Source: Euzebyales bacterium (lineage in GTDB: Bacteria > Actinomycetota > Nitriliruptoria > Euzebyales > JAHELV01). Taken from it: DNA of 64,000 nucleotides. The position numbers were made by a program, and so were the translations under genes. Location: the NCBI GenBank assembly GCA_036374135.1, contig DASUUK010000042.1, forward strand, positions 1 through 64,000, read 5' to 3'. This document shows positions 9,289 through 60,233 of this stretch, piece after piece. Position 1 is the stretch's first letter; every line of letters begins with the position of its first letter. A model generated the notes under the pieces. The model ran no database searches and had not been told where the DNA came from. It was given only the letters and a program-made list of their open reading frames with translations.

Positions 9289-10845
9289 ATGCCACGCGAC
9301 GACGCCCCCGCAGGACGCGGCGACGATCACGGTGAACTGCTGCACGCGCTGCAACGCGCCGTGCAGGGTGCAACGCCGGCCGAGTTGCACGAGATGCTGC
9401 AGCAGGTCATGGCGACCGCCACCGACGCAGCGATGGCGTCCCTGCACGCTCCCCCGCCGTCCCGGAGGCGGCCCCGCCGGTCCGACGTGGTGACCTACCG
9501 GGTGCGGGTCGACCTGACCGGCACCAGGCCACCGCTGTGGCGTCGGCTCGAGCTGACGTCCGACCTGTTCCTCGACGACGTCCACGACGCCATCCAGGCC
9601 GCGTTCGGCTGGACCGACACCCACCTGCACCGCTTCAGCTCCGGGCCACCGTCCGCCGGCCGCGACGCCGAGCAGTACCTGTGCGCGTTCGACGTCGACG
9701 AGGGCGACGTCGGCGTGCCCGAGCAGGAGGTGCGCCTCGACGAACTGCTCGTCGAGGAGGGCGACCGCCTGTACTACACGTACGACTACGGTGACGACTG
9801 GCACCACACCATCAGGCTCGAGGCCGTCGAACCGCGCGAGCCCGGCGCGCCCCGCGCGGTGTGCACGGCCGGACGCCGCCCGGATCCCCCCGAGGACTGC
9901 GGCGGCGCGCCCGGCTACGAGTTGCATGTCGCGGCCGGCGACCCCGACCACCCCGACCACGCCACCGCGTCGGCCGAACTGGCCGACATGTACGGCGCCG
10001 ACGTCGCGGCCGACCTGATCCCGCCACGCCCGTTCGACATCGGCGAGACCAACGCGACACTGGCCGCCTACGGTCTGCACCGCTCCACGGCACCCGCCTC
10101 GCTGCCACCGCCGCTCGCCGCGCTCGCCGACAGGATCCGCACGGTCGAGGGCACCCGCCAGCTGCGACAGCTGATCGTCGACGCCGACCTCGACGAGCCG
10201 GTCGAGGTCGACGCCGAGACCGCGGCCCGGATGGTCCACCCCTACACGTGGCTGCTACGGCGCGTGGGTGACGTCGGCATCACACTCACCGCCGGCGGCT
10301 ACCTCCCGCCAGCGCACGTGTCGGCGGCGTTCGAGCAACTGGGCCTCGACGACGAGTGGATCGGCAAGGGCAACCGCGAGGACCAGACGCTGCCGGTCCT
10401 GCATCTGCGCGAGACGGCGCAGCGGGCGGGGCTGCTGCGCAAGTACCGCGGCGAGCTCAGGCTCACTGCCCGCGGTCGCGCCGCCGTCGACGATCCCCTC
10501 GCACTGTGGTGGCAGCTGGCCGAACGCACGCCAGCGCGCACATCGCGCGAGGACGAGTTCCAGGCAGGCCTCATCCAACTGCTGACGGCGGCCGCCGCCA
10601 TCGACGACATCGACGTCGTGGACGCGACCATCGCGACCGTCCTCGATGCCGTCGGCTGGACGCACCGCGACGGCGCACCCCTGTCCGCGTGGGACGCCGC
10701 GGACGCCGCACGGGACACCCGCACCCTGCTGCGCCGGCTCGGCGGGCTCACCGAACACCCAACCGTCCCCCGGCGTGCCGAGCCGACGACCGACGGCGTG
10801 ACGTTCGCGCGAGCGGCGCTACTGACGTGGGCCGACACCGGGTGA
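9289..10845 (+). CDS. pRiA4b ORF-3-like protein
   Basis: The product is 518 aa. The plasmid pRiA4b ORF-3 domain spans about residues 65-250: VTYRVRVDLTGTRPPLWRRLEL, then HDAIQAAFGWTDTHLHRF, the acidic stretch YYTYDYGDDWHH and a CGGAPGYE motif. This domain is also found as a passenger in IS1096-type elements. The C-terminal half is helical with no identified domain. The function is unknown and no transposase or plasmid gene lies nearby. The ATG at 9289 is used; an in-frame GTG nine bases upstream is possible. Confidence 0.85.
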   Translation: MPRDDAPAGRGDDHGELLHALQRAVQGATPAELHEMLQQVMATATDAAMASLHAPPPSRRRPRRSDVVTYRVRVDLTGTRPPLWRRLELTSDLFLDDVHDAIQAAFGWTDTHLHRFSSGPPSAGRDAEQYLCAFDVDEGDVGVPEQEVRLDELLVEEGDRLYYTYDYGDDWHHTIRLEAVEPREPGAPRAVCTAGRRPDPPEDCGGAPGYELHVAAGDPDHPDHATASAELADMYGADVAADLIPPRPFDIGETNATLAAYGLHRSTAPASLPPPLAALADRIRTVEGTRQLRQLIVDADLDEPVEVDAETAARMVHPYTWLLRRVGDVGITLTAGGYLPPAHVSAAFEQLGLDDEWIGKGNREDQTLPVLHLRETAQRAGLLRKYRGELRLTARGRAAVDDPLALWWQLAERTPARTSREDEFQAGLIQLLTAAAAIDDIDVVDATIATVLDAVGWTHRDGAPLSAWDAADAARDTRTLLRRLGGLTEHPTVPRRAEPTTDGVTFARAALLTWADTG

Positions 10846-42985: not shown

Positions 42986-43070
42986 CCGACCCGAGGCCCT
43001 CGCGCAGCCACCCGTGGGGGTTGCTCCCTCCGCACGACATGCTTGGCTACAGGTACGTCATCGAGGGGAG

Positions 43071-43217
43071 ATGACCGTGCCAGCACACCGCCTCCGCACC
43101 GACCTGAGCCACCTGGTCAGCTGGACGCTGCTGGCCAGTGCCGCCGCCACCATCGCCACCGGGATCATCGCCGATGCGTGGGCGACCGCCGGATCGACCA
43201 GGACGGATGCGCCGTGA
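43071..43217 (+). CDS. Small single-span membrane protein
   Basis: The product is 48 aa from the ATG at 43071 (GAGGGGAG directly upstream). One membrane helix is predicted at about residues 15-36 (LVSWTLLASAAATIATGIIA). Its TGA overlaps the GTG start of the methyltransferase gene, so the two are translationally coupled. The sequence resembles the first helix of larger haem-associated membrane proteins, but this is not sufficient for a call. Confidence 0.55.
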   Translation: MTVPAHRLRTDLSHLVSWTLLASAAATIATGIIADAWATAGSTRTDAP

Positions 43218-43975
43218 CGGCGTACGACGCGCTCGCGTCCGTCTACGACTGGCTCGTGCCCGACATGCTGTTGGAACCGGAAGGGGCGTTCACCGCGTTC
43301 GCCGGGATCGTGGCGGACCTACCGGCCGGGGCACGCGTGCTCGACTGCGCGTGCGGCACCGGCCAGCTGGCTGTCGGTCTGGCCCTCCACGGCTTCGACG
43401 TCACCGCGTCGGATGCCAGCCCGGGCATGGTGGACCGCACCCGGGCGCTGGCCGCCGCCCACCACGCCGAGGTGCGGACGGCGGTGAGCCGCTGGGAGGA
43501 CCTGCGCGGCACCGTCGACGGCCGCTTCGACGCCGTCTTCTGCGTCGGCAACTCGCTGACGCACGCCGAGGGCGCGACCGGACGGCGCGCGGCACTGGCG
43601 GCGATGGCAGACGTGCTCACGCCGCGGGGCGCGTTGGCCGTGACGTCACGCAACTGGGAGCGGTTGCGCGACCGGCGGCCGGGTCTGGAGGTCGATGACG
43701 CGCTCGTGCAACGCGCGGGCCGAGCCGGCCTTGCGATCCGATCCTGGTCGCTGCCCGAGGAGTGGGAGGCGCCCCACCACCTCGAGGTGGCGGTGGCGGT
43801 GCTCGACGGTCGACAGGTCGTCGATGTCGTCGGTGAGCGGTTGACGTTCTGGCCGTTCACGCACCGCCAACTGACCGACGAGTTGCACGCGGCGGGCCTG
43901 AAGCCGACGTCGAGCAGCCACGGCCCCGACGTCGACCGTTACGTGGTGGTCGCCCGCCGGGGCAACGCCGGCTGA
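43214..43975 (+). CDS. Class I SAM-dependent methyltransferase
   Basis: The product is 253 aa with a GTG start overlapping the upstream stop. SAM-binding motif I is VLDCACGTGQLAVGLA near residues 40-55, the acidic loop FDVTASDAS follows, and RFDAVFCVGNSLTH gives the post-II motif. The N-terminal ALASVYDWLVPDMLLEPEG is typical of small-molecule methyltransferases. The substrate is unknown. Ends convergently on the MFS exporter gene; stop codons of both lie inside a shared hairpin. Confidence 0.9.
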   Translation: MTAYDALASVYDWLVPDMLLEPEGAFTAFAGIVADLPAGARVLDCACGTGQLAVGLALHGFDVTASDASPGMVDRTRALAAAHHAEVRTAVSRWEDLRGTVDGRFDAVFCVGNSLTHAEGATGRRAALAAMADVLTPRGALAVTSRNWERLRDRRPGLEVDDALVQRAGRAGLAIRSWSLPEEWEAPHHLEVAVAVLDGRQVVDVVGERLTFWPFTHRQLTDELHAAGLKPTSSSHGPDVDRYVVVARRGNAG

Positions 43976-44010
43976 CGCGCGAGCAGCCCACACGGACCGG
44001 CCGCGTCAGC
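43971..44010. terminator. Shared hairpin covering two convergent stop codons
   Basis: GCTGACGCG (43971-43979) and CGCGTCAGC (44002-44010) form a perfect 9-bp stem with a 22-base loop. The left arm contains the methyltransferase stop and the right arm contains the MFS stop. Confidence 0.45.
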
Positions 44011-45217
44011 ACGCGACCGCAGCGTCCGGCTGCGGGCCGTCCTCGAGGCGGTGCGAGGCGGGCACCAACGCGAGGGCGATGAGCACGACCAGCATGCCCG
44101 ACCCGACCAGCACCGCCTGCGGTCCGAACGCGGACGCGAGCAAGGGTGCCACGGCCAGCGGCGTCAGGTCGCCCGCACGTTCGTGCAGTTGCATCGCTCC
44201 CATCGCCCGACCGATCAACGCGTCGGGCGTCTCGACCTGCACCAGGGTGCGCACGCTCGGCGACAGCAGGCCCAGCAGCGCCCCCCACACCAACGCGCCG
44301 ACGATGACGACGGTCAGCGTGGCGGTGCCCGAGTACAGCATCGCGCCCAGACCGCAGGCCGCCGCGAGCACCGTGACCCGAGGCAGGGTGGCGAACCGCC
44401 GCGGAGCCCGGTCGACCAGCACGGCGCCGCACGCCATGCCCAGCCCGAACACCGAGTTGACCCAGCCGAGTGTGGCCGCGTCGGCCTGCAGGGTCTCGCG
44501 GAAGTACAGCGGCTCCAGCGCCGCGAAGAAACCGATCGACAACCACATGACGGCACCCACGGAGAACACGTGACGGATGCGCGGCCGGCGGTACGCGTAC
44601 CGCAGGCCCGCGGTCATCTCACGCCAGCCCAGCGATGCCCGCTCGTCGGTGTCGTAGGCGATCCGCTGCGGCAGCCGGCTGCACAGTGCGACCGCCAGCA
44701 GCGACGTGGCCGCATCGGCCACGAACACCGCCGCGAGCCCGACCACGGTGCTCAGCAGCGCAGCGCCGGCCGGCCCGAGCACGAACGCCCCGGTGAACGC
44801 GACCTCGAGCGCGGCGTTGGCTCGGCCGAGCCTGTCCGGATCGTTCGTCAGCACCGGCGGGAACGACGCGACGGCGTTGAACACGACCATCGACGAGAAG
44901 CTGACGGCGGCCACGGCCGGTGTCAGCTGGGCGAGCGTGGACGGCAGCATGAGCGCCAGCGTCGACGGGACGACCAGGATCTCGCCGACGAGCAGCAGGC
45001 GCTTGGGGCCGTACCGGTCCACCAGCGCACCGCTCACCGCCGAGCCGACGAGCCCGGCGACACCCATGACCGCCATCACCAGCGCCAGCTGCGACGGCGT
45101 CGCGTCCATCTCGAAGGCCGCCCGACCCCAGATGCCGACGAAGAACGTGCCTTCGGCGCCGGCCGCGGACAGCAGCCTCGCCAACGCCAGCCGCCGTATC
45201 TCCCGATCTCTGAACAT
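44006..45217 (-). CDS. MFS exporter (MFS_3/EntS-like)
   Basis: The product is 403 aa from the ATG at 45217 (GAGGG nine bases upstream). It has about 12 membrane segments and the MFS motif-A loop SGALVDRYGPKRLLL between helices 2 and 3. The LANDxxR-type motif after it appears as VLTNDPDRLGRANA. EntS-type carriers export siderophores, macrolides or other secondary products. It is transcribed divergently from the methyltransferase gene at 45454, across a 236-bp gap with SARP-type repeats, and is therefore a candidate member of a SARP-controlled unit. Confidence 0.9.
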   Translation of the reverse strand: MFRDREIRRLALARLLSAAGAEGTFFVGIWGRAAFEMDATPSQLALVMAVMGVAGLVGSAVSGALVDRYGPKRLLLVGEILVVPSTLALMLPSTLAQLTPAVAAVSFSSMVVFNAVASFPPVLTNDPDRLGRANAALEVAFTGAFVLGPAGAALLSTVVGLAAVFVADAATSLLAVALCSRLPQRIAYDTDERASLGWREMTAGLRYAYRRPRIRHVFSVGAVMWLSIGFFAALEPLYFRETLQADAATLGWVNSVFGLGMACGAVLVDRAPRRFATLPRVTVLAAACGLGAMLYSGTATLTVVIVGALVWGALLGLLSPSVRTLVQVETPDALIGRAMGAMQLHERAGDLTPLAVAPLLASAFGPQAVLVGSGMLVVLIALALVPASHRLEDGPQPDAAVAC

Positions 45218-45272
45218 GTCATCGGCCCTCTTGCGGTCCGCTTGCCGGTCGCCGCGACGACGGTGCCCGACG

Positions 45273-45363
45273 GCGCTGTCAGCGCGCTTACATCCGTGCG
45301 ACGGCATCGGCGTCCCGCCTGACAGCGACCTGACAGCGCCATGAAAGCGCCGGCGTCCATCGT
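45273..45363. promoter_or_regulatory. Candidate SARP binding region: 11-bp spaced direct repeats
   Basis: TGACAGCG at 45320-45327 and 45331-45338 and TGAAAGCG at 45342-45349 form three copies spaced exactly 11 bp. The last ends 8 bp before a CATCGT -10-like hexamer (45358-45363), the spacing known for SARP activators. A fourth, inverted copy CGCTGTCA (45274-45281) lies inside a 13-bp palindrome GCGCTG-T-CAGCGC on the exporter side. A SARP regulator is encoded just downstream at 46659-49775. Link between the two is inference. Confidence 0.6.
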
Positions 45364-45453: not shown

Positions 45454-46530
45454 ATGACCACGACCGTGGAGCCAACGATCACGAGCGACGCCGACACGTT
45501 CGCCGAGCACCTCTTCGGTGCGGCGAACCACACGCTGGAGATCATGAGCGCCTACATCGGCGACCGCCTCGGGTGGTACCGCGCGCTGGCCGAGGCCAGC
45601 GCGACCCCCGACGAGCTGGCGCAGCGCACCGGCACCCATGTGCGCTACACCCGCGAGTGGCTCGAGCAGCAGGCGGTCGTGGGCTGGGTCGACGTCACCG
45701 AGGAGGAGGGCGGCCGCCGGTACCAGCTGTCGCCGGCCGCGGCCGAGGTCCTGACCGACGAGCACAGCCTGCTGTACCTCGCACCGCTCGCGCGGATGCT
45801 GGGGGTGTTCGTGCAGATGCCGGAGCTGCTGGACGCCTACCGCTCGGGCGGAGGGGTGAGCTGGCAGCAGTTCGGCGCCGACGCGCGCGAGTCGCAGGCG
45901 GACATGAACCGCCCGTGGTTCGAGCACGAGCTACCCGGAGCGCTGGCCGGCACACGCCGGGTCGACCGGGTGTTGCGGCGGCCGGGCGCGAAGATCGCCG
46001 ACATCGGGTTCGGCGGCGGATGGTCGAGCATCGCCATCGCCCGCGCCTACCCCGACGCGACCGTGCACGGCTTCGACATAGACGAGGCGTCGGTCGAGAT
46101 GGCGCGACGCAACGCCTTCGAGGCCGGGGTCGCCGACCGCGTCACGTTCACACACGCGGACGCCGGGACGATCGATGGCAGCTACGACGCCGTGTTCTTC
46201 TTCGAGTGCGTCCACGACATGCCCCGCCCGGTCGAGGTGCTGGCTGCGGCGCGCCGGATGGTCCGACCCGACGGCGTCGTCGTGGTGATGGACGAAGCGG
46301 TCGGTGACGAGTTCACCGCACCTGGCGACGACGTCGAGCGGCTGATGTACGGGCTGAGCCTGATGATCTGCCTGCCCGACGGCATGGCGCACCAGCCGTC
46401 GGCCGGCACCGGCACCGTCTTCCGCCCGCGGACGCTGCGTCGGTACGCGCAGGAGGCCGGCTTCCGCGACATCGACGTGCTGCCGATCGAGGACTTCGGG
46501 TTCTGGCGCTTCTACCAACTGCACCTGTGA
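45454..46530 (+). CDS. Class I SAM-dependent methyltransferase with winged-helix N-terminus (Rv2258c-like)
   Basis: The product is 358 aa; AAGGAGCAGGAC precedes the ATG. Residues 15-110 are a dimerising winged helix (ANHTLEIMSAYIGDRLGWYRAL, TRYTREWLEQQAVVGWV-like). SAM motif I follows near 180: KIADIGFGGGWSSIAIARAYP, then FDIDEASVEMARRNA and VFFFECVHDMPRP. The lineage includes Rv2258c-like and small-molecule O-methyltransferases. Substrate is unknown. Three SARP-type repeats lie in its promoter and an exporter is divergent, so it may modify a compound that the exporter removes (inference). Confidence 0.92.
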   Translation: MTTTVEPTITSDADTFAEHLFGAANHTLEIMSAYIGDRLGWYRALAEASATPDELAQRTGTHVRYTREWLEQQAVVGWVDVTEEEGGRRYQLSPAAAEVLTDEHSLLYLAPLARMLGVFVQMPELLDAYRSGGGVSWQQFGADARESQADMNRPWFEHELPGALAGTRRVDRVLRRPGAKIADIGFGGGWSSIAIARAYPDATVHGFDIDEASVEMARRNAFEAGVADRVTFTHADAGTIDGSYDAVFFFECVHDMPRPVEVLAAARRMVRPDGVVVVMDEAVGDEFTAPGDDVERLMYGLSLMICLPDGMAHQPSAGTGTVFRPRTLRRYAQEAGFRDIDVLPIEDFGFWRFYQLHL

Positions 46531-46658: not shown

Positions 46659-49600
46659 TCAGACATCGTCGGTCGGCAGCGCGTCGGCCAGCCGATCGAG
46701 CACATCGCGCGTCCATGCGATCGCCTGGTCGTCGGACATCGCCACGCCCCGCGCCCGGGCGGTCGCGAACCCCGCCTCACCCAGCCGGGCCGACAGCTCG
46801 GCGGCCGCGGCGGCGAGACGTTGCGCGTCGGCACCGAACGCCGGTGAGGACGTCGAGCGGCTGAGCACGATGCCGTGCAGCACGGCTGCGTGCTCGTTGG
46901 CACCCAGCCGCAGCAGCAGGCCGACGATGCTGCGCACCGCGACCCACTGCTGCGTCCAGTTGCGTGCACGGCGCCAGCGGTCGATGGTCTCGCGGAACAA
47001 CTCGACCGCACGGGATGCATTGCCGTGGCGCGCGTGCAGCGAGGCCGCGGTCACCAACGTCACTCCGACCAGGAACCGGTCGTCGAACGCACGGCTGTAG
47101 GCCAGTGCCTCCTCGGCGACCGGCAACGCCCGCTCGGGCTCGTGCTCCACCAGCGCCTCGGTCAGCGCATACGTCGCCCACGCGACACTGGCCGGCGTGC
47201 CCTCACGTCGACCGGCCGCCAGGATGCGCTCGGCCGCGGTGATGGCCGCGTCGGTCCTGCCGCTGTAGGCCTGGGCCAGCACGCGGCTGACGCGCAGCCA
47301 CACGTCGAACAGGCGGCTCGCCCCTGAGGGCGCCACCTGCTCGAGGACATCAGCAAGGGCGAGCACGTCGTCGAGCCGGCCCTCGTACAGCGCGACCTCC
47401 GACAGCGCGTACGTCGCCGTGTAGACGGCGGGGTCGTGCGGGTCCGCGCAGTGGGCGAGACCGCGTTCGGCCAGCGCCGTCGCGGCCTCCAGGTCGCCGC
47501 GGAACCGGGCACTGAGCGCGGCCGCACCGTACGCCGCGGTCATCAACGCCGGATCGACGCCGGCATCCTCGGCCGCCGTGACCGTGGTCTCGGCCCACGT
47601 GTAGGCCTCACCGTGCGCCCGGTGCTCCGCGTACGGCGGCAGCGCGGCGACCAGGCGTAGCGCGAGGGGAAGGTCGTGCGCGGTGGCCCACCCGTGCGCG
47701 GCGCGCAGTTCGTCGATGGCGTGATCGAGGGTGGCCGCAGCCCGCTGTGGTCCCACATCGGACAGATCCACGGCCACGCGCTCGGCGAGGTCGGTGTAGT
47801 ACGCGGCGTGCGCACGCCGCGCGCGCGCCATCGCGTCGCCGTCGCCGAGGCGTTCGCGCCCGTACGAACGCAGCGTCTCGAGCAGCGCATACGTGGCGGA
47901 GCCCGAGGACGTGTGCGCGCCGAGCATCGACGCGTCGACGAGGGCGGCGACCGCGTCGGCCACATCGGCAGCGTCGATGGTCGCGTCCGCCGCGGCCACG
48001 ACGTGCTCGGCCGCCTCGAGGGTGAAGCCTCCGGCGAACACCGACACCAGGTCGAAGACACGCCGCGCCCGCTCGCCGAGCAGGTCGTACGACCAGTCGA
48101 CGACCGCCCGCAGCGTGCGGTGGCGGTCGGCACCCGTCCGCCGCCCGCCGCGCAGCACCCGGAACCGCCAGGACAGTCGCTCCGCCAGATCGCGTGGCGT
48201 CATCGATCGCATCCGGATCGCCGCGAGCTCCAACGCCAGCGGTAGGCCATCGAGTCGCCGACAGATGTCCACCACCGCGTCGCGGTTGTCCTCGGTCAGC
48301 GCGAAGCCCTCGTGGGCCGCGGCCGCCAGCTTGCAGAAGAGCTGGACGGCAGGGCTCTCGCGGCCGTGCGCACCGTCACCGGTCGACCGACGTGCTGCCC
48401 GCCGGGCGACAGCGTCGCCACGGTCGCCCGATGCCGATCGATCGGGTGGCGGCGGATCCACCGCCAGTGGCGGCACGGCGACCACGCGCTCGGCGGCGAC
48501 GCCGAGCCGCTCACGACTGGTGACCAGCACGACGACGTCGGGGCAGTCCTGCCCGATCGCCGCGACCAGCCGCGCGATGCCGCCGAGCACGCGCTCGGCG
48601 TTGTCGAGCACCAGCAGCAGCTGCTGCGACCGGAGGACCTCGATCACCCCTTCGAGCGGGCCGGCACCGGGGCGTGGCGTCGCCCGCAGCGTCGTCATCA
48701 CGAGACCGACGACCGCGTCGTCATCGTCGATCGAGGCGAGCTCACACCAGCACACGCCGTCGGCGCGGGTCTCCGCGGCGCCCGCCGCGACAGCGAGCGC
48801 GACACTGGACTTGCCGACGCCGCCCGGGCCTACCAACGTCAGTGGCCTCCCGGGCGCCAGGGCGCCGACGACATCGTCGACCAGCCGGTCGCGACCGACG
48901 AGGGCCTGCGCGGGCGCCAGCGTCGGGGACCGCACGGGTCGCGAGGCCGCCCGCCCCCCACCGTCCGGCATGGCGACGTCGGTGACCGGCGGACCGGCGC
49001 CACCCAGGTCCGGATCCGCGCGGAGGATCTGCCGCTCGACGTGCTGCAGCTCGGCCGACGGCTCCAGCCCGAGCTCCTCGTCCAGCACGCTGCGGTAGCG
49101 GCGGTACACGGCGAGCGCGTCCGCGTGGCGGCCCGCGCGGTACAGAGCGATCATCAACTGCGCATGCGGCCGCTCGCGTAGCGGATGCTCACGGGTCAGC
49201 AGTTCGAGGCGCGCGATCGCGCCGTCGGTGTCGCCCTGCGCCAGCGCCGCCTCGGCGCGATCCTCGAGCGCGGCTGCGCGCAGCTCGGTCAGCCGCGCGG
49301 CCTCGGCGCGGGCGAACGGCTCGTCACGGAACTCTGCGTACGCGTCGCCGCGCCACAGTGCCAGCGCCTCGTCGAGCAGCCCGGCCACCGTCGCCGCATC
49401 GGCCCCGGCCGCCTGGGCGCGTTCCACCAGTCCGGCGAAGACCGTGGCGTCCAGTGTCTGGTCGGCGAGGTCCAGCACATAGCCGGGCGCACGCGTCACG
49501 ATCTGCGGGACGTGGGTGTCGTTCTGTGGCAGTCTGCTGCGCAGCCGGGATACGAGCGTCTGGACGGCACCGGTGGTGTTCGTCGGTGGGTCGTCACCCC

Positions 49601-49775
49601 ACACGATGTCGGCGAGCCGGTCGACCGAGACAACGGTGCCGGCGTTGAGCACCAGGCCGGCGAGCAGTCGCCGCAGGTTCGGTGACGCCAGCGCGATCGA
49701 CGCGCCGTCGTCGCCGACGATCTCCAGCGTGCCGAGCACGCGCACCCGCACGGGCGCGCTGTGGTGTGGCGTCAT
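46659..49775 (-). CDS. SARP/AfsR-type regulator with NB-ARC ATPase and TPR domains
   Basis: The product is 1038 aa. Residues about 8-100 are the OmpR-like winged helix of SARP proteins (VLGTLEIVGDDGASIALAS ... GAVQTLVSRLRSRL). The bacterial transcriptional activation domain follows to about 255 (DEALALWRGDAYAEF ... RYRSVLDEELGLEPSAEL). Next is an NB-ARC/STAND ATPase with P-loop LVGPGGVGKSS near residue 315, LLLVLDNAERV and RLDGLPLALELAA. The rest is TPR-like helical repeats. Such regulators activate promoters with 11-bp direct repeats and integrate ATP-dependent signals. The matching repeats at 45320-45349 lie about 4 kb from its start, upstream of the methyltransferase. Confidence 0.93.
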   Translation of the reverse strand: MTPHHSAPVRVRVLGTLEIVGDDGASIALASPNLRRLLAGLVLNAGTVVSVDRLADIVWGDDPPTNTTGAVQTLVSRLRSRLPQNDTHVPQIVTRAPGYVLDLADQTLDATVFAGLVERAQAAGADAATVAGLLDEALALWRGDAYAEFRDEPFARAEAARLTELRAAALEDRAEAALAQGDTDGAIARLELLTREHPLRERPHAQLMIALYRAGRHADALAVYRRYRSVLDEELGLEPSAELQHVERQILRADPDLGGAGPPVTDVAMPDGGGRAASRPVRSPTLAPAQALVGRDRLVDDVVGALAPGRPLTLVGPGGVGKSSVALAVAAGAAETRADGVCWCELASIDDDDAVVGLVMTTLRATPRPGAGPLEGVIEVLRSQQLLLVLDNAERVLGGIARLVAAIGQDCPDVVVLVTSRERLGVAAERVVAVPPLAVDPPPPDRSASGDRGDAVARRAARRSTGDGAHGRESPAVQLFCKLAAAAHEGFALTEDNRDAVVDICRRLDGLPLALELAAIRMRSMTPRDLAERLSWRFRVLRGGRRTGADRHRTLRAVVDWSYDLLGERARRVFDLVSVFAGGFTLEAAEHVVAAADATIDAADVADAVAALVDASMLGAHTSSGSATYALLETLRSYGRERLGDGDAMARARRAHAAYYTDLAERVAVDLSDVGPQRAAATLDHAIDELRAAHGWATAHDLPLALRLVAALPPYAEHRAHGEAYTWAETTVTAAEDAGVDPALMTAAYGAAALSARFRGDLEAATALAERGLAHCADPHDPAVYTATYALSEVALYEGRLDDVLALADVLEQVAPSGASRLFDVWLRVSRVLAQAYSGRTDAAITAAERILAAGRREGTPASVAWATYALTEALVEHEPERALPVAEEALAYSRAFDDRFLVGVTLVTAASLHARHGNASRAVELFRETIDRWRRARNWTQQWVAVRSIVGLLLRLGANEHAAVLHGIVLSRSTSSPAFGADAQRLAAAAAELSARLGEAGFATARARGVAMSDDQAIAWTRDVLDRLADALPTDDV

Positions 49776-58725: not shown

Positions 58726-58778
58726 CGGCCGTGCGGTCGGTTGGCATCGACCACGCTCAACGGTGATCATTGTCAGGT

Positions 58779-60233
58779 ATGGCTGTTCCAGGTGATGTGA
58801 TCGGCGGTCGCTACGAGTTGCTGTCGCGACTCGGTCGTGGTGGCATGGCCGAGGTCTTCCGCGCCCACGACCAACGGCTCGGCCGGCAGGTCGCCGTCAA
58901 GGTGCTCGCTCCGCACCTGCTGGCGGACGCACGGTCGATCGAACGCTTCGGCCGCGAGGCGCGAGCCGCCGCGTCGCTCAACCACCCCAACATCGTCAAT
59001 GTCTTCGACGCGGTGAACGACGGCGACACGCACGCCATCGTGATGGAGCTCGTCGAGGGCCCCACCCTGGCCGACGTGATCGAACAAGATGGCCAGATGG
59101 ACGTGGCCGACGCGACGCAGACGGCGATCGGCATCTGCGACGCCCTGCAGGCCGCCCACGATCGTGGTCTGGTCCACCACGACGTCAAGCCGCGCAACGT
59201 GCTGTTCGACGCGGACGGGGCGCTGAAGGTCACCGACTTCGGCATCGCCCGGGCCGCCAGCAGCGACATCACCACCATCCAGGGCTCGCCACCGTACCTG
59301 GCGCCGGAGCAGGCGCGCGGCGGTCAGTCGGACCGGCGCAGCGACGTGTACGCGCTCGGCTGTGTGCTGTTCGAGATGCTCGCGGGACGTCCGCCGTTCG
59401 ACGGTGACAGCTCGTCGGCGATCGTGATGGCCCACATCGACGCGCCCGTCCCCCCGCTGTCGGAGTTCCGTCCAGACGCGCCACGCGACCTCGAACAGGT
59501 CGTGAACCGTGCGCTGGCCAAGGATCCCGCGGCACGGTACGACTCCGCGGCCGCGCTGCGCGCGGATCTCACACGCATCGCCGGCGGGCTCGCCCCGCTG
59601 GGGGCCACGATCGTGTCCTCGACACGGGCGATGCCGGCCGACGCGACGATGGCGGTCGAGGACGAGTGGACCGACGAACCCGCCGAGTACACGGACCGCT
59701 ACGACGAACCACCACCCCGGCGTCGTCGCCGCATGACCGCGCGGGCGGTGGCGATCGCGCTCGGGGTGGTCCTTCTGCTGGTCGTCCTGGCGATGGCGTG
59801 GGCCGACAACGCCCAGCCCGACGTTGCGCAGAACGCCCCGGTCGCCAGCGAGCCCGCCCCGGAGCCGGAGCCCGATACGGACACGGGCGACGGCACTGCT
59901 GACGGTGGGAACCAGGGCGGCCTCATCGACGATCTCAACCGGCGCGCTGACCAGCTCGAGGATCTGCTGCAGCGCGGTCGCGACGCCGACGAGGCGACCC
60001 GGCGGCGCATCGACGAGCTCGAGCGTCAGTTGCAGGACGCGCTCGACCAGGCGGCTGCGGCCGCAGGCGGAAACGACCAGGGTAACGGCGCGAACGAGAA
60101 CGGCACCGAGACCGGCAGGCTTGACGAGCTGCAGCGCCGCATCGACGATCTCACACAAGACCAACAGGTCACTGATCGCATCGTCGAGCAGATCCAGCAG
60201 ATCCTCAACGACCTGAACCCGTTCAACAGCTGA
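58779..60233 (+). CDS. PknB-type Ser/Thr protein kinase with single membrane span
   Basis: The product is 484 aa. The kinase domain covers about residues 10-270: glycine loop LGRGGMAEVF, ATP Lys in VAVKVLAPH, catalytic HHDVKPRN (HHD in place of HRD), DFG in VTDFGIARA, and APE in YLAPEQARGG. A low-complexity acidic and Arg-rich juxtamembrane region precedes one membrane helix (VAIALGVVLLLVVLAMAW). The extracellular part is Asn/Gln/Asp-rich with a coiled coil (RRIDELERQLQDALDQ). It lacks PASTA repeats. The ATG at 58779 is used; an in-frame TTG at 58770 is possible. Confidence 0.92.
   Translation: MAVPGDVIGGRYELLSRLGRGGMAEVFRAHDQRLGRQVAVKVLAPHLLADARSIERFGREARAAASLNHPNIVNVFDAVNDGDTHAIVMELVEGPTLADVIEQDGQMDVADATQTAIGICDALQAAHDRGLVHHDVKPRNVLFDADGALKVTDFGIARAASSDITTIQGSPPYLAPEQARGGQSDRRSDVYALGCVLFEMLAGRPPFDGDSSSAIVMAHIDAPVPPLSEFRPDAPRDLEQVVNRALAKDPAARYDSAAALRADLTRIAGGLAPLGATIVSSTRAMPADATMAVEDEWTDEPAEYTDRYDEPPPRRRRRMTARAVAIALGVVLLLVVLAMAWADNAQPDVAQNAPVASEPAPEPEPDTDTGDGTADGGNQGGLIDDLNRRADQLEDLLQRGRDADEATRRRIDELERQLQDALDQAAAAAGGNDQGNGANENGTETGRLDELQRRIDDLTQDQQVTDRIVEQIQQILNDLNPFNS

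Follow-up and report, generated by a model that had tools for sequence, protein, structure and literature searches.

The intergenic region between a class I methyltransferase gene and a divergently oriented MFS exporter gene carries two arrays of phased direct repeats, one on each strand, which by geometry would be classed as SARP operators and which very probably serve the large SARP encoded beside the methyltransferase gene, with binding and activation as predicted steps. On the methyltransferase side, on the plus strand of the window (the whole 64-kb stretch of DNA analysed), sequence inspection and a motif scan place operator units at 45320–45327 (TGACAGCG), 45331–45338 (TGACAGCG) and 45342–45349 (TGAAAGCG), each 11 bp from its predecessor, and 8 bp past the third unit lies the -10-like hexamer CATCGT (45358–45363), giving the order TGACAGCG-acc-TGACAGCG-cca-TGAAAGCG, 8 bp, CATCGT (45320–45363). 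This bears out a sequence-only reading of the region, which had placed three copies at 45320, 45331 and 45342 in 11-bp phase and 8 bp from a -10-like hexamer. The same reading had noted an inverted fourth copy on the exporter side; an inverted copy is indeed present, but the number was wrong, as the minus strand holds two phased copies, TGTAAGCG (45285–45292) and, 11 bp from it, TGACAGCG (45274–45281), which are followed after 8 bp by the -10-like hexamer CACCGT (45260–45265) in the order TGTAAGCG-cgc-TGACAGCG, 8 bp, CACCGT (45292–45260). Both directions therefore present an equal promoter-like architecture of phased units, 8-bp gap and hexamer, and the placement of both arrays relative to the hexamers fits an overlap with the -35 region of a weak promoter, where the promoters are predicted and each -10 is a sequence match only.

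SARP sites described previously consist of direct repeats at 11- or 22-bp spacing, with the 3' repeat located 8 bp from the -10 (PMC10936776; PMC4393881), and the view that the geometry seen here is that of a SARP activator agrees with this published operator layout. In the cryo-EM structure of the AfsR complex, the contacts of each protomer are to the leading 8 bp of its 11-bp unit; the -10 of the afsS promoter, CACTGT, is weak (PMC10936776). SARP operators with three and with two units are both known (PMC10972967). The window arrays fit the published layout in phase, gap and unit number, and the unit sequence alone differs. Indeed, TGACAGCG is not among the known unit types CGTTYATCG and CGGCAAG, nor is it of the TCGAG type, a further known SARP unit sequence; unit sequence varies between SARPs, such that this criterion is not strict.

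The methyltransferase (45454–46530, plus strand), to which Pfam assigns an Rv2258c-like winged-helix domain, is the probable target gene, and its closest solved relatives are TnmJ (PDB 8g5s, E=1.6e-36) and an Rv2258c-type methyltransferase (PDB 5f8c, E=5.8e-27). The exporter (44006–45217, minus strand, start ATG at 45217; MFS_1 E=4e-30) is a probable second target. A SARP gene had been read just past the methyltransferase gene, and we locate it at 46659–49775 on the minus strand, convergent with the methyltransferase gene, where it encodes a SARP/AfsR-like protein of 1038 aa that is the probable array binder. The protein is laid out as winged helix, BTAD, putative STAND/NB-ARC ATPase and C-terminal part, and its matches to Trans_reg_C (E=3.9e-10) and BTAD (E=1.2e-40) are those of a large SARP; the nSTAND/NB-ARC matches fall under the cut-off, a Walker A motif (GPGGVGKSS) is present, and no C-terminal TPR is called, the TPR matches falling within BTAD. 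It matches the AfsR structures 8k60, 8jke and 8hvr (E about 1e-37). In the alignment, T88 and R92, through which AfsR contacts bases, are kept as T73 and R77. Judged by the NCBIfam equivalog cut-off of 1430 bits, against which it scores 182, the protein does not count as an AfsR orthologue.

No array with a -10 comparable to those described here was found in the window upstream of the SARP gene, where it might have indicated autoregulation. The window also encodes a Ser/Thr protein kinase (58770–60233), about 9 kb from the SARP gene; AfsR is phosphorylated by Ser/Thr kinases in Streptomyces. Beside the exporter gene, following a LysR-family gene, lies an unrelated second methyltransferase gene of the glycine/sarcosine N-methyltransferase-like type (43043–43975, plus strand), which is unmatched in the region fetched from the nearest relative, G002.

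Among the loci compared, the exporter side of the layout was seen in the window only. None of the others has a further array running the opposite way close by, neither of the two nearest relatives (G001 and G002) carries the exporter, and arrays sought at its best homologues elsewhere (38–49% identity) gave none scoring at least 17/24; taken together, these points make recruitment of the exporter look specific to the source genome, and the exporter is not a general partner. The same points, together with the imperfect unit TGTAAGCG, would also be expected if the methyltransferase side alone were functional and the exporter pair were a degenerate or fortuitous inverted copy, an arrangement that is compatible with SARP control of the methyltransferase. 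We consider this unlikely, as the two copies share both the phase and the 8-bp offset to CACCGT, AfsR itself acts on two units (PMC10936776), and two units are needed, and are enough, for binding of the PimR SARP domain in vitro (PMC5930380). Rather, both the methyltransferase and the exporter are likely to respond, as the sequence-only reading had suggested for the two divergent genes; the full second promoter-like array supports that suggestion, while this part of it is seen in the window only.

On the methyltransferase side, the arrays recur in relatives and are associated with the SARP gene. Methyltransferase homologues in relatives were split according to whether a SARP gene is adjacent, and in each 250-bp upstream region the top-scoring lag-11 repeat of three copies was compared with dinucleotide shuffles (p<0.05). 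Phased arrays were found at 20 of the 34 SARP-linked loci versus 1 of the 18 unlinked ones (Fisher p=1.4e-4; Mann-Whitney p=1e-6), values that overstate independence because the loci are mutually related. A fixed frame was then defined by a hexamer of the form nAnnnT (A second, T sixth) whose first base lies 16 bp past that of the last unit, and in 29/37 promoters the phased units lie exactly 16 bp before nAnnnT (p<=0.05 per locus), the same offset as that of CATCGT in the window. The hexamer positions left free in this search converge, with C or G at position 1 in 28/29 and mostly G at position 5. In the fixed frame, four SARP-linked loci (L141, L149, L151 and L262) lacked a clear array, two of them (L262 and L141) having the methyltransferase-SARP gene order of the window; the fixed-frame array is thus common, but not universal, before SARP-linked methyltransferase genes. 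The class comprises 66 genomes, and a class-wide search for further held-out genomes added essentially none.

Two groups of loci have a distinct middle unit upstream of the methyltransferase gene, the arrays reading CGCAACCG-TGCGGTCG-CGCAACCG in L138, L139 and L140 and TGTACGC-GTGACCG-YGCAAG in L135, L143 and L144, a pattern that would fit a different mode of binding at the middle position.

The sequence-only reading implied that the repeats should persist in relatives with the orthologous gene pair, and they are not lost: they are kept in the nearest relative, in orthologues from other families and, in the same frame, in SARP-linked homologues across the class. Outside the class, 80 named loci were examined for TGACAG-type arrays, and such arrays stand before the methyltransferase gene in Nonomuraea (L191), Planomonospora (L193), two Planobispora (L194 and L195) and an Actinomycetospora MAG (L264), as well as, with a SARP gene adjacent, in Blastococcus (L235) and Nocardioides (L245); at most of the 80 loci there is no array and no SARP was detected. 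Scores of at least 21 occur in just 8 of 5652 tiles over the orthologue loci, and those tiles include methyltransferase-upstream regions. In a Ktedonobacterales MAG (L241), a perfect 11-bp tandem array of GAAACAGAGAA ends about 55 bp before a methyltransferase match, and no SARP match was found in that locus.

The nearest relative, G002, is collinear with the window from the methyltransferase gene rightwards (methyltransferase 83%, SARP about 60%), and no match to the window was found leftward of it. Its array, TGACAGGC gga TGACAGGC gga TGGGAGCG, 8 bp, CATGGT, was equalled in 0/1000 shuffles and 1/460 real control windows, and is located about 950 bp upstream of the methyltransferase gene, directly before a GNAT-like gene so labelled from reading the sequence and not from a family search. 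As the array is kept there before another gene, the operator outlived a change of gene order, although this displaced position counts against control of the methyltransferase by the adjacent SARP. The ATG of the GNAT-like gene lies 6 nt past the CATGGT hexamer, which suggests a leaderless transcript. The gene itself (L047:9755-10580) appears frameshifted near 10400, which would reflect an error of assembly or decay of the gene.

The units in the family fall into the types TGCACG, YGCARCCG, CGCAAGCG, GTTGACCG and TGACAG, and the recognition helix of the adjacent SARP shifts with the unit type. Helix RNSLQSHVARLR pairs with operator TGCACG, RKTLQSYVSRLR with YGCARCCG, VKVLQTHVSQLR, in which R77 is changed to Q, with GTTGACCG, and [G/Q]A[LV]QT with TGACAG; T73 of the recognition helix is N in G002 and G001, a point against use of the arrays by the adjacent SARP. 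The distance between operators correlates with that between recognition helices (r=0.54, Mantel p=1e-4), and a correlation persists when BTAD distance is controlled for (partial r=0.36, p=2e-4), a test that removes ancestry incompletely. Because operator type also tracks BTAD distance (r=0.57), part of the covariation is due to shared descent. The strongest single associations include residue 77 and residue 58, the latter being V in TGAC types and L elsewhere. Paralogous pairs within one genome are exemplified by CGCAAGCG and TGACAG in G005 and by TGCACGCG and GTTGACCG in G048. We regard as an even call the proposal that the SARP and the Rv2258c-like methyltransferase constitute a recurring one-target module in the class, where paralogous copies would have co-diverged in helix and operator to become insulated pairs, and that the module in the window captured the exporter via its second, divergent operator.

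An operator of the SARP/OmpR type could also be bound in trans by a regulator other than the adjacent SARP. Such an arrangement would accommodate the Streptosporangiaceae orthologues that have the array and for which no strong SARP match was found within 6.5 kb, as well as the several further AfsR/SARP-like proteins encoded in the genome, and PhoP likewise acts on direct repeats, overlapping the AfsR site in Streptomyces (PMC10972967). However, across the whole genome of 3.98 Mb, the paired motif at <=1 mismatch is confined to three places, all of them in the intergenic arrays, unlike a global regulon, and this single genomic location argues for a dedicated local regulator. Within the class, moreover, the arrays associate with SARP adjacency and the operator sequence tracks the helix of the adjacent SARP, which together render binding in trans improbable and favour use of the arrays by the adjacent SARP. 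Identity as a PHO box, the operator of PhoP, was considered separately and is not supported, since at <=1 mismatch the motif does not recur in many promoters as that of a global regulon would.

Within the 64-kb window, TGAMAGCGnnnTGAMAGCG with <=2 mismatches has 3 matches, all in the intergenic array region, and 0/100 shuffles of the window contained 3; lag-11 triples scoring at least 21/24 occur once, as the methyltransferase-side array, and at ten other lags not at all. That the repeats are in tandem by chance and regulate nothing, as might be supposed given that imperfect short repeats abound in GC-rich DNA and that exact 8-mer pairs at lag 11 (n=7) are little above those at other lags, has a negligible probability when 3 matches are found versus 0.14 expected and when the fixed-frame recurrence in relatives and the presence in orthologues contradict chance.

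With the adjacent SARP as the binder, we envisage that its protomers would line up next to one another between the -35 and -10 regions, one per 11-bp unit, and that the active form of the SARP would recruit RNA polymerase to the weak -10. Three units would direct transcription of the methyltransferase gene from CATCGT and two divergent units that of the MFS exporter gene from CACCGT, such that one regulator could turn on modification and export jointly, these being the chemical roles that we tentatively attribute to the two products. The signal may be sensed by the ATPase and C-terminal part of the SARP.

The operator is ordinary in kind; what is new is a recurring SARP-methyltransferase module with co-diversified operators, for which no description was found in the open-licence papers searched, where no relevant paper linking the exact octamers with a SARP was found either. 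Work on SARPs has centred on Streptomyces, where they switch antibiotic clusters. In the window, the apparent targets of a large SARP are one methyltransferase and one exporter that lie outside any recognised cluster, and the natural SARP-operator pairs could provide a direct route to the DNA-recognition code of SARPs and to target prediction from sequence.

The window arrays resemble the operators of OtcR in the oxytetracycline oxy promoters (PMC4393881), which similarly lie in divergent intergenic regions with 11-bp spacing and 8 bp to the -10, in a cluster that also contains an exporter gene (otrB). The unit differs, however, being CGGTCGAAG in the oxy promoters, and OtcR serves a complete antibiotic cluster, while the scanned window proteins include no recognised product of a core secondary-metabolite or biosynthetic gene. 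The operators of the SARP-LAL regulators PimR, SanG and PolR (PMC5930380) comprise two heptamers, or three for PimR, that are classically 11 bp apart as in the window arrays, and their unit CGGCAAG/TGGCAAG has YGnCA in common with TGACAGCG. In contrast to the window system, these regulators have a LAL C-terminus and other target genes, and for PimR there is no overlap between operator and -35.

AfsR, which binds the afs box of afsS in Streptomyces coelicolor (PMC10936776), is likewise a large SARP; it has an ATPase domain, putatively matched in the window protein, and a C-terminal domain, and it binds a pair of 11-bp direct repeats, contacting 8 bp in each, which follow the same unit scheme as the window arrays. 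A weak -10 is also shared, CACTGT at afsS and, as predicted elements, CATCGT/CACCGT in the window, and the contact residues T88 and R92 are conserved in the window SARP. While the window SARP lies far under the AfsR equivalog level overall (182 versus 1430 bits; NCBIfam) and the unit is of the CGTTYATCG type for AfsR rather than TGACAGCG, the two systems also differ in reach, AfsR being a global regulator and the window site being local and single in the genome.
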